Shown piece by piece: positions 41,533 through 48,071 of a DNA stretch of 54,297 bases. The notes under the pieces are model-generated. The model was not told the origin of the DNA, ran no database searches, and saw only the letters and a list, made by a program, of their open reading frames with translations. The stretch spans positions 1 to 54,297 of the forward strand of contig VGHO01000004.1 of the NCBI GenBank assembly GCA_016868175.1, written 5' to 3'. The stretch comes from Betaproteobacteria bacterium (GTDB lineage: Bacteria; Pseudomonadota; Gammaproteobacteria; Burkholderiales; Burkholderiaceae_E). Every line of letters begins with the position of its first letter. The first letter of the stretch is position 1. The position numbers and the translations under genes are program-made.

Positions 41533-42996
41533 ATGTCGGATCTCGAAACCGCCCGTTTGCCTGCCGAAAGGCTGCGTCGTGTGGCGATCGACCCGATCTC
41601 GCGGGTGGAGGGCCACGGCAAGGTCACCTTGCTGCTCGATGAACACAACCGGGTCCATCAGGCGCGACTCCATATCGTGGAGTTTCGCGGCTTCGAGGTC
41701 TTCATCCAGGGCCGCCCGTATTGGGAGGTTCCGGTGATGGTGCAGCGGCTGTGCGGCATCTGCCCGGTTTCCCATCACCTCGCCGCGAGCAAGGCGCTCG
41801 ACCGCATCCTGGGTGCCGACGTACTCACGCCCACAGCCGAAAAGTTGCGTCGCCTGATGCACTACGGGCAGATCCTGCAATCGCATGCGCTGCATTTCTT
41901 TCACCTCTCCCTGCCCGACATGCTGTTTGGCTTCGAGACCGATCTGCAACGTCGCAACATTGTGGAAGTTGCCGCGAAGTATCCGGAGATTGCTCTGCAG
42001 GGCGTGATGCTGCGCAAGTTCGGCCAGGAAGTGATCCGCCTCACTGCGGGCAAGCGGGTGCATGGCACCGGCTCGGTCCCGGGAGGCGTGAACCGTTCGC
42101 TCAAGAGCGACGAGCGCGCGCTGCTCGCAGGGGGCGCCGCACAGGCTGTGGACTGGAGCGCCGGTGCGGTCGACATCGTGCGCGAGATGCACGAGCGCAA
42201 CCGGGATCTCTACGACAACTTCGGGACCTTTCCGTCGAGCTACATGAGCCTGATCGGCGCCGACGGTACGCTCGACCTCTACGACGGTGCGCTCCGGGTG
42301 ATCGATTCCGAGGGTCGCCGACTCTTCGACGGCATCGATGTGCAGGGCTACCAGCAACTCATCACCGAGTCGGTGAAGCCGTGGAGCTACATGAAGTTCC
42401 CCTACCTGAGCCGGCACGGCGCAGAAGATGGCTGGTATCGCGTTGGCCCGCTCGCGAGAGTGCAGACCTGCGACCGCATGCCCACGCCGCGCGCGGAGGC
42501 AGCGCGCAAGGCTTTCTGCGCCTACAACGGCGGGGCCCTGCGGCATGCATCGCTCGCCTTTCACTGGGCCCGCATGATCGAGATGCTCTGCGCAGCCGAG
42601 ATCGTGGAGGAACTGCTCGCCGATCACGACCTTGAAGGCCACGACCTGGTGGTGAGCGGCGAGCGGCGCCGCGAGGGCGTGGGCGTGATCGAGGCGCCGC
42701 GGGGCACCCTGATCCACCACTACCAGGTCGGCGACGATGACCTGGTCACGATGGCCAACCTGATCGTCTCCACAACACACAACAACCAGGCGATGAACAC
42801 CGCAGTGCGCGAAGTTGCCCGCAACTACTTCGATGGGCGCGAAGTCACCGAGGGGCTCCTCAATCATATCGAGGTGGCCATCCGTGCCTACGATCCCTGC
42901 CTGTCCTGCGCCACGCATGCGCTGGGCCAGATGCCGCTGGTGGTGAGCGTGGTGGATCCCGAGGGCAACGAAGTCGCCCGGAGGGTTCGCGAATGA
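41533..42996 (+). CDS. hoxH: [NiFe]-hydrogenase large subunit HoxH
   Basis: 487 residues from an ATG with GAAGGAG upstream. Ni-Fe ligands: Cys74/Cys77 in RLCGIC and Cys456/Cys459 in DPCLSCATH. About 25 residues after the DPCxxCxxH motif would be removed by HoxW during maturation. IDPISRVEGHGKV is the group 3 opening signature. Catalyses reversible H2 cleavage. It overlaps hoxW by four bases. All active-site residues seen are intact, so the catalytic subunit itself is not decayed. Confidence 0.96.
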   Translation: MSDLETARLPAERLRRVAIDPISRVEGHGKVTLLLDEHNRVHQARLHIVEFRGFEVFIQGRPYWEVPVMVQRLCGICPVSHHLAASKALDRILGADVLTPTAEKLRRLMHYGQILQSHALHFFHLSLPDMLFGFETDLQRRNIVEVAAKYPEIALQGVMLRKFGQEVIRLTAGKRVHGTGSVPGGVNRSLKSDERALLAGGAAQAVDWSAGAVDIVREMHERNRDLYDNFGTFPSSYMSLIGADGTLDLYDGALRVIDSEGRRLFDGIDVQGYQQLITESVKPWSYMKFPYLSRHGAEDGWYRVGPLARVQTCDRMPTPRAEAARKAFCAYNGGALRHASLAFHWARMIEMLCAAEIVEELLADHDLEGHDLVVSGERRREGVGVIEAPRGTLIHHYQVGDDDLVTMANLIVSTTHNNQAMNTAVREVARNYFDGREVTEGLLNHIEVAIRAYDPCLSCATHALGQMPLVVSVVDPEGNEVARRVRE

Positions 42997-43463
42997 CTGC
43001 ACTCGTGCTCGCCTGGGGCAATCCAAGCCGCGGCGACGATGCGCTCGGGCCACGCTTTGCAGAGCAGATCGAACGCTGTGGCTACCCGGGCGTGGAGTGC
43101 CTCGTGGATTTTCAGCTGCAGGTGGAACACGCGCTCGACCTCGAGGGACGGCAGCGGGTGCTCTTTGTGGATGCGAGCCATGCCGCCGGCTGGAGCGATG
43201 CCGAGTGCTTTCGCGTCACCCGCCTCCGCCCGGGGCCGCAAATCACTTGCGGCTCGCACGCCATGCGACCCGATGAGGTGCTCCGCGTCTGGTCGCTGCT
43301 CAAGGCGTCGCCACCGCCCCCGTGCTGGCTGCTTGCCATCCGCGGCTACCGCTTTGCGCTCGGCGAGGAGGTTTCGGATGCCGCGCAACGCTGTCTGCGC
43401 CACGCGCTCGTCTGGGCACAGTCCTTTTTGCAGTCCGGCGCCCACAGCTGCGCCAATGCATGA
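42993..43463 (+). CDS. hoxW: Hydrogenase maturation endopeptidase HoxW
   Basis: 156 residues. It starts with ALVLAWGNPSRGDDALGPRF, where the Glu/Asp (GDD) is a nickel-sensing ligand, and has LFVDASHAAG and CGSHAMRPDEVL with the His that completes the site. It clips the C-terminal tail of HoxH after nickel insertion. ATGA overlap with hoxH; its end overlaps hypA by 8 bp. Confidence 0.92.
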   Translation: MTALVLAWGNPSRGDDALGPRFAEQIERCGYPGVECLVDFQLQVEHALDLEGRQRVLFVDASHAAGWSDAECFRVTRLRPGPQITCGSHAMRPDEVLRVWSLLKASPPPPCWLLAIRGYRFALGEEVSDAAQRCLRHALVWAQSFLQSGAHSCANA

Positions 43464-43806
43464 ACTCAGCATCGCAGCGGGAATCCTTCAGCGGGTGGAG
43501 GAACTTGCACAGCAGGAAGGTTTCTGTGCCGTGGAGGAGTTGCACCTCGAGGTCGGGCAACTGAGCGGCGTGGAAACCGAGTCGCTGCGTTTTGCGCTCC
43601 AGAGCATGGTCGGCGGCTCGCTGCTCGCAGGCGCACGCATCCGGATCGCTGAGCAACCTGGCCGGGCCTGGTGCGGCGTCTGCAACGAACGGGTGGAGGT
43701 GGAATCGCGCGCGCAGGTGTGTCCCCGTTGCGGCAGACCCGGCCTGAGCGTGCTCGAAGGAACAGGACTGCGCCTGGTGGACCTGCTTGTCCGCGACCCG
43801 GCCTGA
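43456..43806 (+). CDS. hypA: Hydrogenase nickel-insertion protein HypA
   Basis: 116 residues starting MHELSIA; His2 is the nickel ligand. Two CxxC pairs (Cys73/76, Cys89/92) bind structural zinc. Standard length. It works with HypB to deliver nickel to HoxH. Confidence 0.95.
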   Translation: MHELSIAAGILQRVEELAQQEGFCAVEELHLEVGQLSGVETESLRFALQSMVGGSLLAGARIRIAEQPGRAWCGVCNERVEVESRAQVCPRCGRPGLSVLEGTGLRLVDLLVRDPA

Positions 43807-43907: not shown

Positions 43908-45110
43908 ATGTGTGTGGTTTGTGGCTGCGGAGAAAGCACTGAGCATCCGGCCAGGATCGAGAAGGGCGGCCACGGCGGCGAGCGCACTTCTGGCGAGCAT
44001 GGGTCCGGCGAGCGCACTTCTGGCGAGCGCACTTCCGGCGAGCACACGTCTGGCGCACGTTCGTCAAGCGACGGCGGAGGCGGGCGTTCTGCGGGCAGCG
44101 CCGCCACCGGTGCATACCCCACAACACTCGACTTCAGCGCAAACGCAGCCAGGGTTTCCGTACCCGGGATGAGTACTGCACGCGCAATACGGCTCGAGGA
44201 GGATGTGCTCGGCGCAAACAACCGGGTCGCAGCGCTCAACCGCAGCCGCTTCGAGGAGCACGGGGTACTTGCGCTCAACCTGGTATCAAGCCCCGGCTCG
44301 GGCAAGACCACCCTGTTGTGCGAAACCCTTTTGCGTTTACAGCGCGCAAGCCCTGAGCTTGGCCTGCTGGTGATCGAGGGCGACCAGCAATCCCGGATCG
44401 ACGCCGAGAGGATCGGGCAAACCGGTGTTGCGGCGGTTCAGGTCAACACCGGCAAAGGGTGCCATCTCGATGCACCTATGGTGGAGCGCGCCTTCACTGC
44501 GTTGCATGCGCACCTGCCGCATGCCCATCACCACCATCCGCACCCACAGCATGCCCATCACCACCATGCGCACCTGCCGCATGCCCATCACCACCATCCG
44601 CACCCACAGCATGCCCATCACCACCATCCGCACCCGCCGCATGTTCACCATGACCCCTCTCACGCCCCGCCCAACGCTGTGGGGGCCCTGCTCTTCATCG
44701 AAAACGTGGGCAATCTGGTCTGCCCGGCGCTTTGGGATCTTGGCGAAGACGCCAAGGTGGTGGTGCTCTCGGTAACCGAGGGCGAGGACAAGCCGCTCAA
44801 GTATCCGGATATGTTTGCAGCGGCGTCGCTGATGCTCCTCAACAAGGTCGACCTGCTTGCGCATGTGCGCTTTGATGCAGACCGCTGCGAGGAACTGGCG
44901 CGACAGATCAGCCCGGGGATCTCGATCCTGCGGGTGTCGGCCTACACCGGTGAGGGCATGGATGCCTGGCTGGGCTGGCTCGGCAGTGCGCTGGCACAAA
45001 AGCGCGAGCGCGCGCAGCGCCTCAGGGCGCAGCGTCTTCGCCAGAGCATCGCTGCCTTGCAGGAGGAACTTGCCCAGGTCGAGGCCCGCGAGCTTCCGGC
45101 CTCGAACTGA
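43908..45110 (+). CDS. hypB: Hydrogenase nickel GTPase HypB with two repeat insertions
   Basis: 400 residues. The N-terminal nickel site CVVCGCG (Cys2, 5, 7), Walker [10 protein letters not shown] (about 127-135), G-domain metal pair Cys185-His186 (GKGCH) and Cys272 (NLVCP) are all present. Two insertions are unusual. Residues ~24-53 are GER/EHTS repeats where other HypBs often have a His-rich linker. Residues 201-250 are five decapeptides rich in His (HAHHHH type) inside the G domain, between Cys185-His186 and Cys272; in E. coli HypB these ligands are only about 31 residues apart. The His stretch could store or buffer nickel. Confidence 0.95.
43977..44066 (+). repeat. 15-bp tandem repeat, 6 units, in the N-terminal linker of hypB
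   Basis: Units of GGCGAGCGCACTTCT and variants, encoding [30 protein letters not shown]. In frame. Confidence 0.95.
44508..44657 (+). repeat. 30-bp tandem repeat, 4 full units and one degenerate, His-rich region of hypB
   Basis: Alternating 30-bp units (44508-44537, 44538-44567, 44568-44597, 44598-44627) that share the last 18 bases, GCATGCCCATCACCACCA plus T. Units 1 and 3 match, as do units 2 and 4, so a 60-bp block has been duplicated. A fifth unit is degenerate. Encodes [10 protein letters not shown] and [10 protein letters not shown] peptides. Confidence 0.95.
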
Positions 45111-45122
45111 GACGGCGCGGCT

Positions 45123-46544
45123 GTGGACGACCCGCAGCGGGCGCCGGCGGTGCTTGGCCTCGGCGCCATGCTCGCCAACCGGGCGGTTCTGGCGAGCGAT
45201 CAGGGTTGGCTCTGGTCGGACCACCACGGCGACCTGCGCAACCCCGGCGCATGCAGGGCGCTGCGCAGCACCGTCGAAGCCTGGCTCGCAAACCCCCGCC
45301 AGAGCATCCTTGCCTTCGCACACGACCGGCATCCGGACTTCTACAGCACGCGGATTGCCCATGAACTCGGCGCGTACTACGCGGTTCCAGTGCTCGCTGT
45401 TCAGCACCACCATGCGCATGTTGCAGCCGTTGTGGCAAAGCACCGCATCGGGGGGCCGGTGCTCGGGCTTGCGCTCGACGGTTTCGGCTGGGGTGCCGAC
45501 GACACGGCTTGGGGCGGCGAGGTACTCCTCGTGCATGCCCACCGCTGGTCGCGGCTTGCCCACCTCCAGCGACTGCCCATGCCAGGCGGCGACCAGGCCA
45601 CGCTGCAACCCTGGCGGCTCGCGCTCGCATGGGCCCATACCCGTGGGGCAGCCCCGGCGCGACTGCGCCGGGGACCCTCCACCGCGCAGTTGCGAACCCC
45701 CTCCGAAGACCCCACCGGTCTGCCCGTGGGCGCACCGGCGTGGAGCGCAGACAGAGCCGCCGTGCTGCACATGCTCGAGCGCGACCTCAACTGCCCCACC
45801 ACCTCGAGCGCAGGGCGGTGGTTCGACGCGATGGCAGCGCTGCTTGGCTTGTGCAGCACCCAGCCCAACGAGGTGCAGGCAGCGCAACTCCTCGAGGCGG
45901 CGGCTGAGCGCTACCTGGCGCAACTTCCCGTGTGCGCTGCACCTCCGGGCGGGTACGGGTCGGACCGGGGCCACTGGGTGCGAGGCACCGAGAGCGAACT
46001 GCCGATCGGAGACCTGGTGTCGGAGCTCCTCGATGAACTTGCCCCAGCAGGCCCGCGCAGCGACCAGCCAGCCTCCAGCCGCGCAGCATCTGCCTCAGAG
46101 GCGCAAGTGAACCGCGCCGCAGCCGGTTTTCACCTCGGTCTTGCCGACGGGCTGGTGCGCAGCCTCGCAAGCTGGGCCCGGCGCTGCGCGGTTGGGCAGG
46201 TGTGCCTGAGCGGTGGATGTCTTGCCAACCGCATCCTGCGCGAGAGACTCTGCGCGGGTCTGCAGCGGGCAGGACTGCAGACCTGGCTCATGGCGCACGG
46301 TGAACATGGCGACGCGAGCCTTGCGCTCGGACAGGCTTTCGTGGCTCGCGCCTGGCTGAGCGCATGGAAAGCCGCCGGACACCCCGCCGCGGATGCACCA
46401 CGCCCTGAAGGGGTTCTGGCAGCGCAGTGCGGTACTCTAGTCCTCGAGGCAGATCCGCAGCCCTGGGAGAGCCTCGTGGAATCACCCCGCCCTGAGGAGC
46501 ATGCACAGTGTGCCTCGCTGTACCGGCCCGCATCGTTGAGTTAG
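45123..46544 (+). CDS. hypF: Short HypF (HypF2-type) carbamoyltransferase, Kae1-like part only
   Basis: 473 residues from a GTG at 45123. It contains the HypF C-terminal domain: VLAVQHHHAHVAAVVAKH (metal site), LALDGFGWGADDTAWGGE, and VCLSGGCLANRILRERL. Missing are the acylphosphatase domain, zinc fingers and YrdC domain that make full HypF about 750 residues. A similar short HypF2 exists in Cupriavidus necator hydrogenase clusters. The missing carbamoyl-adenylate step may come from a full-length HypF elsewhere. A Ser/Ala linker near residues 320-330 is not conserved. Its end overlaps hypC by 37 bp. Confidence 0.88.
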   Translation: MDDPQRAPAVLGLGAMLANRAVLASDQGWLWSDHHGDLRNPGACRALRSTVEAWLANPRQSILAFAHDRHPDFYSTRIAHELGAYYAVPVLAVQHHHAHVAAVVAKHRIGGPVLGLALDGFGWGADDTAWGGEVLLVHAHRWSRLAHLQRLPMPGGDQATLQPWRLALAWAHTRGAAPARLRRGPSTAQLRTPSEDPTGLPVGAPAWSADRAAVLHMLERDLNCPTTSSAGRWFDAMAALLGLCSTQPNEVQAAQLLEAAAERYLAQLPVCAAPPGGYGSDRGHWVRGTESELPIGDLVSELLDELAPAGPRSDQPASSRAASASEAQVNRAAAGFHLGLADGLVRSLASWARRCAVGQVCLSGGCLANRILRERLCAGLQRAGLQTWLMAHGEHGDASLALGQAFVARAWLSAWKAAGHPAADAPRPEGVLAAQCGTLVLEADPQPWESLVESPRPEEHAQCASLYRPASLS

Positions 46545-46720
46545 GCGTCTCGCAGACCGCAGTGGTCGACCTCGGCGGCGTGCGCAAGAGCGTTTCGCTG
46601 GCACTGCTCGACGATGTGCAGGTGGGCGACTATGTGATCGTGCACGTGGGCCATGCGATTGCTCTGGTCGATGCCGAGGAGGCTGCCCAGACGCTTGCGC
46701 TTTTCGATGCGTTTCGTTGA
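46508..46720 (+). CDS. hypC: Hydrogenase assembly chaperone HypC
   Basis: 70 residues from a GTG with GAGGAG upstream. Cys2 (MCLAVPARI) is the essential residue carrying the Fe(CN)2CO unit with HypD. VGDYVIVHVGHAIALVDAEEA is the OB-fold core. Lies within the hypF end and overlaps hypD by 14 bp. Confidence 0.94.
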   Translation: MCLAVPARIVELGVSQTAVVDLGGVRKSVSLALLDDVQVGDYVIVHVGHAIALVDAEEAAQTLALFDAFR

Positions 46721-48071
46721 CGAATTCAGGGACGTCGAACGCGCAAGGGGCCTCGCGCGGGCCATCCACGCCGAGGCGCTCCCCGATCGTCGCTATCGCC
46801 TGATGGAGTTCTGCGGCGGGCACACCCATGCGATCGCCCGTCACGGGCTGAGCGACCTGCTCCCGCAACAGGTGCGCCTGGTTCACGGACCTGGCTGCCC
46901 TGTTTGCGTGCTTCCGATCGGCCGGGTGGACATGGCGATCACGCTGGCGCTCGAAGGCGGCGTCACCCTGTGCACGTATGCGGATACGCTGCGGATACCC
47001 GCTTCGCAGGGCATGACGCTGCTCAAGGCCAAGTCGGCGGGTGCCGACGTGCGCACGGTGTACTCGCCTGCGGATGCACTTGCGATCGCACGCGCCGATA
47101 CTTCCCGCGAGGTGGTTTTCATGGCGATCGGCTTTGAAACCACCACGCCGCCCACGGCTCTTGCGATCGATCAGGCCTGCAGCGAGGGCCTCGGTAACTT
47201 TTCGGTGATGTGCAATCACGTGCTCACACCTCCGGCGATCATGGCCATTCTCGAAGGCGGCGCGAGCGGCCAGGGCGCAAGCCTCGATGGGATCGTTGGG
47301 CCAGGACATGTGAGCCTGATCACCGGCGCGCAAGCCTTCGCACCGGTGGTAAGCCGTCATGGCATGCCGCTGGTGATCGCAGGCTTCGAACCGCTCGACG
47401 TACTGCAGGCGATCCTGCTCCTGCTGCGCCAGATCAACGATGGCAGGGCAGCGCTCGAGAACCAGTTCACCCGCGCGGTCACCCTCGAGGGCAACCGCAA
47501 GGCGCAAGCGCGCATCGAGCGCGTGTTCCAGAGGCGCGAGTCCTTCGAGTGGCGCGGTCTTGGCACCCTCGCCAACTCGGCGCTCCGACTTGCCGACCGG
47601 TACGCGCCCTGGGACGCCGAGCGCAAGTTTTTCATGCACTACCGCACGGTTGCCGATCACAAGGCCTGCGCCTGCAGCGAAGTGCTGCGCGGCATCCGGG
47701 ACCCGCGGGAGTGCAAGATCTTCGGCACCGTCTGCACCCCGGATCATCCGATCGGATCGTGCATGGTCTCGAGCGAGGGCGCGTGCGCGGCGGTGTATCT
47801 GCACCGTTCGAAGCCCCGTGCGGAGCCGCATCGGGAACCTCATGCAAAGCCTCAGCCGAAGCCCCGTGCGGAGCCGCATCCGGAGCCGCATCCGGAGCCC
47901 GATGCCAAGGCCCCTTCCCAGAACGGAGCGCCGGCGCCCGAACCCTTCCAGGCCAAAGACGCGCCTTGCGGCGACGCCTTCCTTCCGGCGCGCACCGGCC
48001 TGCGAGACCCGATCATCCCGGCGAACCCGCCACTTTCCGGGCGCGATGAAGCCATTCGCACCACGGCTTGA
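46707..48071 (+). CDS. hypD: Hydrogenase maturation protein HypD with extended repetitive C-terminus
   Basis: 454 residues; about 375 is usual. All key motifs are seen: FCGGHTH, GPGCPVCVLP, GFETTTPPTA, CNHVLTPPAIMAILE, and the C-terminal 4Fe-4S cysteines in CACSEVLRG, ECKIFGTVCTPDHPIGSCMVSSEGAC. After SEGACAAVYLH, where the family ends, about 80 more residues follow, first a 12-bp repeat encoding KPRAEPH-type peptides, then unrecognised sequence. The start at 46707 overlaps hypC. HypD builds the Fe(CN)2CO group on HypC. Confidence 0.93.
   Translation: MRFVDEFRDVERARGLARAIHAEALPDRRYRLMEFCGGHTHAIARHGLSDLLPQQVRLVHGPGCPVCVLPIGRVDMAITLALEGGVTLCTYADTLRIPASQGMTLLKAKSAGADVRTVYSPADALAIARADTSREVVFMAIGFETTTPPTALAIDQACSEGLGNFSVMCNHVLTPPAIMAILEGGASGQGASLDGIVGPGHVSLITGAQAFAPVVSRHGMPLVIAGFEPLDVLQAILLLLRQINDGRAALENQFTRAVTLEGNRKAQARIERVFQRRESFEWRGLGTLANSALRLADRYAPWDAERKFFMHYRTVADHKACACSEVLRGIRDPRECKIFGTVCTPDHPIGSCMVSSEGACAAVYLHRSKPRAEPHREPHAKPQPKPRAEPHPEPHPEPDAKAPSQNGAPAPEPFQAKDAPCGDAFLPARTGLRDPIIPANPPLSGRDEAIRTTA
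47811..47906 (+). repeat. 12-bp / 48-bp repeat in the hypD tail
   Basis: The 22-bp sequence starting AAGCCCCGTGCGGAGC at 47811 recurs at 47859, giving a 48-bp period built of 12-bp GAGCCGCATCCG-like units. Encodes the Lys/Pro/Glu/His-rich tail of HypD. Confidence 0.85.

Follow-up and report, generated by a model that had tools for sequence, protein, structure and literature searches.

A Histidine-Rich Loop inside the G Domain Marks a Clade of HypB Proteins and Is Probably a Relocated Metal Reservoir

The hypB Gene and Its Neighborhood

We have studied a hypB gene of a betaproteobacterium (Betaproteobacteria bacterium, assembly GCA_016868175.1). It lies on contig VGHO01000004.1 in a window of 54,297 nt, i.e., the whole stretch of DNA analyzed; the draft genome comprises 353 contigs. 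The order of genes at the locus is hoxH, protease, hypA, hypB, truncated hypF, hypC and hypD, which is that of a hydrogenase maturation cluster:

41533..42996, + strand: hoxH, [NiFe] hydrogenase large subunit (PF00374; start codon checked)
42993..43463, + strand: hydrogenase maturation protease, hoxW-like (TIGR00072, 68.6 bits)
43456..43806, + strand: hypA (PF01155; start codon checked)
43908..45110, + strand: hypB, nickel-incorporation GTPase of 400 amino acids (open reading frame; TIGR00073, NF053667, PF02492; fold like 2hf8)
45123..46544, + strand: truncated hypF, only the C-terminal Kae1-like part (PF17788, PF22521; TIGR00143 positions 389-740 only)
46508..46720, + strand: hypC (PF01455)
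46653..48071, + strand: hypD, with a low-complexity C-terminal tail (TIGR00075, 442.9 bits; PF01924)

The hoxH gene encodes the only [NiFe] large subunit found in this genome, which has one HypB. The only HypF found is the C-terminal half, similar in this to HypF1 of C. necator. The latter is described as having just one domain of the three in HypF, and as possibly dependent on carbamoyl adenylate (PMC9100943).

The product of hypB scores 247.5 bits against TIGR00073, above the curated cut-off of 121.2, and the match falls in two stretches with an insert between them. The protein also matches PF02492, and gives a prefix match of 41.3 bits to NF053667. The score against the equivalog NF007775 (PRK10463), 314.6 bits, lies below its cut-off of 385, which leaves membership of TIGR00073 unaffected. 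Identity as UreG is rejected, with 19.8 bits against TIGR00101 compared with a cut-off of 204.2. The features within the gene are as follows:

43908..43928, + strand: N-terminal MCVVCGC, containing the CXXCGC motif (sequence)
43977..44055, + strand: 15/30-bp tandem repeat of the N-terminal tail, histidine-poor, coding for [10 protein letters not shown]-type units (TRF; translation)
44295..44309, + strand: P-loop GSGKT, residues 130-134
44379..44429, + strand: region matching switch I (A. fulgidus HypB 65-81), residues 158-174, holding D159, D165 and R168 (alignment with 2wsm; ranges from PMC3262836)
44460..44465, + strand: C185-H186, metal ligands of the G domain
44472..44507, + strand: helix 189-200, running from the metal ligands to the root of the loop (AlphaFold2 model)
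44505..44684, + strand: histidine-rich inserted loop, about residues 200-259, predicted to be disordered (block pLDDT 46-63)
44505..44624, + strand: two identical 60-bp tandem copies, each of two 30-bp half-units (TRF; comparison of copies)
44700..44750, + strand: region matching switch II (A. fulgidus HypB 115-131), residues 265-281, [17 protein letters not shown] (alignment with 2wsm; ranges from PMC3262836)
44721..44723, + strand: C272, third ligand of the CHxnC metal site
44799..44801, + strand: K298, matching A. fulgidus Lys148 (alignment)

The residues of the catalytic and metal-binding core are intact. C185, H186 and C272 of the CHxnC site, together with D159, D165, R168 and K298, are invariant in 20/20 HypBs aligned. 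Alignment with 2wsm equates the last four with Asp66, Asp72, Arg75 and Lys148 of A. fulgidus HypB, residues that have been tied to GTP binding and dimerization, Lys148 being needed for the GTP-dependent dimerization (PMC3262836).

A Tandem Repeat Encodes a Histidine-Rich Insert

The translated sequence contains 28 histidines among the 50 residues from 201 to 250, inside HypB, and C185, H186 and C272 stand where the preliminary description had placed them. The presence of a histidine-rich insert within the G domain is therefore confirmed. Its extent can be gauged from the gap between the conserved GCHLD and ENVGN motifs, which is 76 residues in the window HypB and 21 in 74 of 99 HypBs (a collection enriched in insert-bearing proteins). 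There are thus ~55 extra residues, spanning roughly 200-259, slightly more than the segment first delimited.

At the level of the DNA, a 60-bp block is indeed duplicated, as had been proposed. Positions 44505-44564 and 44565-44624 match at 60/60 nucleotides. Within each copy the two 30-bp halves differ from one another, and the repeat runs on to 44654 as a fifth half-unit that has diverged; TRF returns 2.3 copies over 44505-44643. The histidine codons of the insert segment are 14 CAC and 14 CAT. The exact number of 60-bp copies is that of a draft assembly of 353 contigs and is accordingly provisional.

Could the insert be an artifact? Its reading frame continues that of the conserved HypB sequence on either side, and relatives carry histidine-rich inserts of different sequence at the same site; for these reasons it is not a matter of chance. 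An assembly error is an unlikely source, with inserts at this site on the complete C. necator megaplasmid and on plasmid pEP1 of Acidovorax temperans. Alignment with homologs, which the preliminary description had suggested, shows insertions at this position in relatives, so that the insert is not special to the genome of the window. The three other genomes of the genus gave no HypB match at E 1e-25, and comparison of loops and copy numbers is therefore limited to more distant pairs. The turnover of the loop is fast: in two genomes of one genus, 193/200 core residues of HypB are identical, with loops of 51 and 39 residues.

Position of the Insert in the Folded Protein

Where does the insert lie in the structure? 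We ran AlphaFold2 on the window HypB aligned with 78 HypBs from named genomes (L065, which is present in the tree described below, was left out). The core of the model is confident. Helix 189-200 leads into the insert, for which the block pLDDT of 46-63 predicts disorder, and strand 260-265 follows it. Comparison with M. jannaschii HypB (2hf8) gave Z = 31.0 and an rmsd of 1.5 over 209 residues, i.e., the fold is that of a SIMIBI GTPase. The corresponding Z values are 30.0 for H. pylori HypB (4lps) and 22.3 for UreG (5xkt).

The preliminary description had set the repeat beside the metal site of the GTPase. The rise of a helix is 1.5 Å per residue, and the root of the loop is 14 mostly helical residues from H186, a distance that we estimate from the helix rise, and not from coordinates, as ~20 Å from the ligands. 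The loop therefore emerges from helix 189-200 at the end away from the ligands and does not adjoin the metal site, and a flexible chain of ~55 residues could be long enough to reach back to it. The further suggestion that the insert falls in the segment moving between the GTP and GDP states is not supported either, as it is located between the region of switch I (158-174) and that of switch II (265-281); switch II is itself reported to move little in A. fulgidus HypB (PMC3262836). What survives of the earlier interpretation is that the histidine-rich segment is in the G domain and not at the N-terminus, that it plausibly buffers nickel, and that its length differs strongly between close relatives.

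This geometry bears on an alternative, an extension of the direct feeding proposed in the preliminary description, in which the loop would be an intramolecular feeder or a sensor of nickel occupancy, either passing ions to C185, H186 and C272 or, on stiffening, acting upon the ligand helix. A nickel-filled loop would then alter the helix carrying the Cys-His ligands, or feed the site at the dimer interface directly, such that the nickel stock gated the GTP-driven delivery to HypA; this consequence is as doubtful as the idea from which it comes. In the model the loop does connect the helix beginning behind C185-H186 with the strand running into switch II and C272, and the disordered chain should be long enough to arrive at the site. 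Yet its root is far from the ligands by our estimate and it lies outside both switches, the presence of anything from 4 to 84 extra residues across HypBs does not point to a tuned mechanical coupling, and an operon with the insert-free HypB2 of C. necator works too (PMC5350229). We consider a feeder or sensor unlikely.

The Insert Is Confined to One Clade

We built a tree of 103 HypBs from 221 conserved alignment columns, excluding the loop, taking one HypB per locus and requiring fixed motifs. Five sequences are outside the tree: L010 and L072 (both with a segment of 21 residues) and L055 (a segment of 28 residues free of histidine, and without the tryptophan that marks the clade), which have a deviating metal-site or neighboring motif and would count with the non-clade HypBs, L041, which is partial, and L049, which includes a run of N. 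The proteins were largely collected by searching named genomes with aligned insert-bearing HypBs and keeping the best 80 of 385 relatives, and are not a random set; a plasmid search found 134 records.

A single clade, to which the window HypB belongs, holds 27 of the 103 proteins, with an ultrafast bootstrap/SH-aLRT of 100/99 (SH-aLRT 98 in a quick tree). A histidine-containing insert of at least 4 residues is present in 25 of these 27, giving a GCHLD-ENVGN gap of 25-105 residues. In the other 76 HypBs of the tree the gap is 20-25 residues (21 in 73 of them) with 0-1 histidines, and no histidine-rich insert was seen among them. Short inserts free of histidine do occur outside the clade, with 4 extra residues in L011 (no histidine run) and 7 in L055 (no histidine). 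The clade is further marked by a tryptophan in the sequence CPxxWDLGE, found in 27/27 members, including the window HypB, and 0/76 others.

Insert-bearing HypBs include those of Rhodoferax, Acidovorax facilis, A. temperans, Leptothrix discophora, Sphaerotilus mobilis, Hydrogenophaga, Variovorax, a Paraburkholderia and HypB1 of C. necator H16. The longest loop among the HypBs compared, 88 residues with 38 histidines, belongs to a Rhodoferax protein (L067:5980-7101).

Histidine makes up 37.7% of the pooled loop residues in the 25 proteins (13-56% in each) and 7.1% of their complete N-terminal tails. The median number of N-terminal histidines is 3 in the 25 clade HypBs with complete N-termini and 15 in 75 others; p = 9e-8 for this difference is overstated because all the histidine-rich inserts fall in one clade, which in the main leaves a single evolutionary contrast. 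The total of N-terminal, loop and C-terminal histidines is 14 in the clade compared with 15 in the others. Within the clade, N-terminal and loop histidines are inversely related (Spearman −0.45, p = 0.02), but neither p value is that of independent data, since the proteins are related and the rows are also non-random. The window HypB has 4 histidines in its N-terminal tail, against the median of 15 in the 75, and so lacks a histidine tail of the B. japonicum type. Part of this tail is filled by the histidine-poor 15-bp repeats, in a place where many other HypBs carry a histidine run.

Exchange of tail for loop is not strict, because there are exceptions: two Methyloversatilis proteins of the clade have just 4 extra residues with 2 histidines at the site, the loop of L054 has 5 histidines in 38 residues, and HypB of Rhodoferax KJN.1 has histidines in both tail (15 N-terminal) and loop (11). 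The two clade members lacking the insert, L012 and L015, have long runs at both ends; the N-termini of the pair have 13 and 33 histidines, the C-termini 26 and 25. The CXXCGC sequence, a high-affinity nickel motif known from E. coli HypB (PMC7055735), is found in 25/25 clade and 75/75 other HypBs with complete N-termini, a count that is not independent because most of the motif also served in picking the start.

These comparisons bear on the possibility that the repeat grew neutrally, in a surface loop tolerant of insertions, and that its histidines are a chance product of slippage where the genome is rich in GC. Such growth would account for a tandem repeat with identical 60-bp copies, for a second, histidine-poor, repeat in the N-terminal tail of the same gene, for the rapid change of loop length, and for the short inserts of L011 and L055. 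It would not lead us to expect that 25/25 loops of differing sequence should be 13-56% histidine when the N-terminal repeat of the window HypB is poor in it, nor that N-terminal histidine should fall in the same clade. Neutral growth thus seems quite improbable.

The neighbors of hypB were examined for 16 of the 27 clade loci. In 13 there are accessory genes of membrane hydrogenases, and 3 have HoxH with HoxW, like the window. All 16 have hypD and hypF parts. The C-terminal part of HypF occurs without the N-terminal part in 15/16 of these clade loci with flanks, and in 3/43 other loci having a HypF match (70 examined).

Frequency of the Insert

Using TIGR00073 we surveyed 74 genomes of the family, together with draws from larger groups of 399 (order), 369 (class) and 398 (phylum) genomes. 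HypB exceeded the cut-off in 10/74, 120/399, 123/369 and 97/398 genomes respectively, corresponding to 338 different genomes by hand count. For most of these the length of the profile match served to gauge the insert; the partial matches in G352 and G669 fall outside this count. Eleven genomes carry 15 or more additional residues at the insert site (G000, G007, G064, G015, G052, G377, G330, G810, G529, G658 and G871; sequences read).

Comparison with Known Systems

C. necator H16 has HypBs of both kinds. HypB1 (WP_011153938.1, encoded on pHG1 within hypA1B1F1CDE) resembles the window HypB in having a histidine-rich insert at the same site and a histidine-poor N-terminal tail; it falls in the same clade, and its gene adjoins a truncated hypF as in the window. 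The insert differs in sequence from that of the window HypB, and HypB1 is part of a membrane-bound hydrogenase cluster, whereas the cluster in the window follows hoxH. HypB1 is reported to serve the regulatory hydrogenase too (PMC9100943). HypB2, from hypA2B2F2 in the soluble hydrogenase operon, has by contrast an N-terminal histidine tail and no insert; it lies outside the clade, and a long HypF2 adjoins it.

An E. coli hypB mutant is rescued by a C. necator operon with either HypB1 or HypB2, and the authors describe both as functional (PMC5350229). Loop position therefore had no effect in that assay. It follows that an insert-bearing HypB works, and that HypBs in general can function without the insert.

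The HypBs of B. japonicum and R. leguminosarum are similarly rich in histidine and thought to store nickel, binding 9 and 4 Ni per monomer (PMC7055735). In these proteins, however, the histidine run is N-terminal, and the G-domain segment is 21 residues long (6 Bradyrhizobium sequences). Outside HypB, the COG0523 (CobW-like) proteins are G3E GTPases with variable histidine-rich stretches that have been read as parts of metallochaperones; the stretch is commonly near the C-terminus, and the metals and targets are different (PMC2770081). RcnA of cable bacteria offers an internal histidine-rich loop that has grown in a lineage-specific manner in a nickel protein, but this is a membrane exporter and not a GTPase (PMC11247825).

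Discussion

From the pattern of sequences we conclude that the insert is probably a metal (nickel) reservoir, relocated from the N-terminal tail to a disordered loop between helix and strand. In the common ancestor of the clade, or early within it, a histidine-rich stretch would have grown in the loop that follows the helix of the Cys-His ligands, and the N-terminal histidine tail would have been mostly lost; we infer both the direction and the number of these gains and losses. The loop would remain disordered and, having a modest affinity for nickel (or for zinc and other metals), would bind several such ions, plausibly buffering nickel, within the very protein that hands it to HypA, and storing it for delivery to the G-domain site. 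The GTPase, the dimerization and the three-ligand metal site should work as in other HypBs, and slippage of the repeat would lead to the fast change in loop length.

A role mainly in protection, in handling zinc or cobalt, or in docking a partner, in place of a store for hydrogenase nickel, could draw on the binding of Zn, Cu and Co by histidine-rich HypBs (PMC7055735) and on the different hydrogenase types adjoining the clade HypBs (13/16 membrane, 3/16 HoxH/HoxW), but hypD and hypF parts in 16/16 clade loci examined with flanks, and one [NiFe] large subunit and one HypB in the genome of the window, speak against it. We think it very improbable.

The HypB literature cited here places the histidine-rich part in the N-terminal tail; in the clade there is approximately equal histidine, mostly in a loop of the catalytic domain, where the length in other HypBs hardly departs from 21 residues. 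A search for nickel-storing HypBs confined to the N-terminus would miss much of the clade. A histidine-rich metal store on HypB is already known. In searches of the open-license literature on HypB and histidine, and on HypF, we found no description of an internal histidine-rich loop in HypB, nor of its position as the mark of a clade. The sequence of C. necator HypB1 has long been public, so a remark in an older paper is possible. Since C. necator has both designs, loop in HypB1 and tail in HypB2, and both operons are functional in E. coli, the position of the reservoir is directly testable. The two proteins make a natural pair for comparing nickel loading, GTPase rate and choice of metal.

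Some minor observations may be added. In HypB of a Breoghania metagenome-assembled genome (L072) the third metal ligand is changed from cysteine to phenylalanine, at the position that reads NLVCP in other HypBs. In the window, the tail of HypD that follows the conserved domain contains EPH-type repeats (47812-47899), and a 7-bp tandem repeat, CCGTTTA, is present in about 15 copies at 381-487, near the start of the contig.
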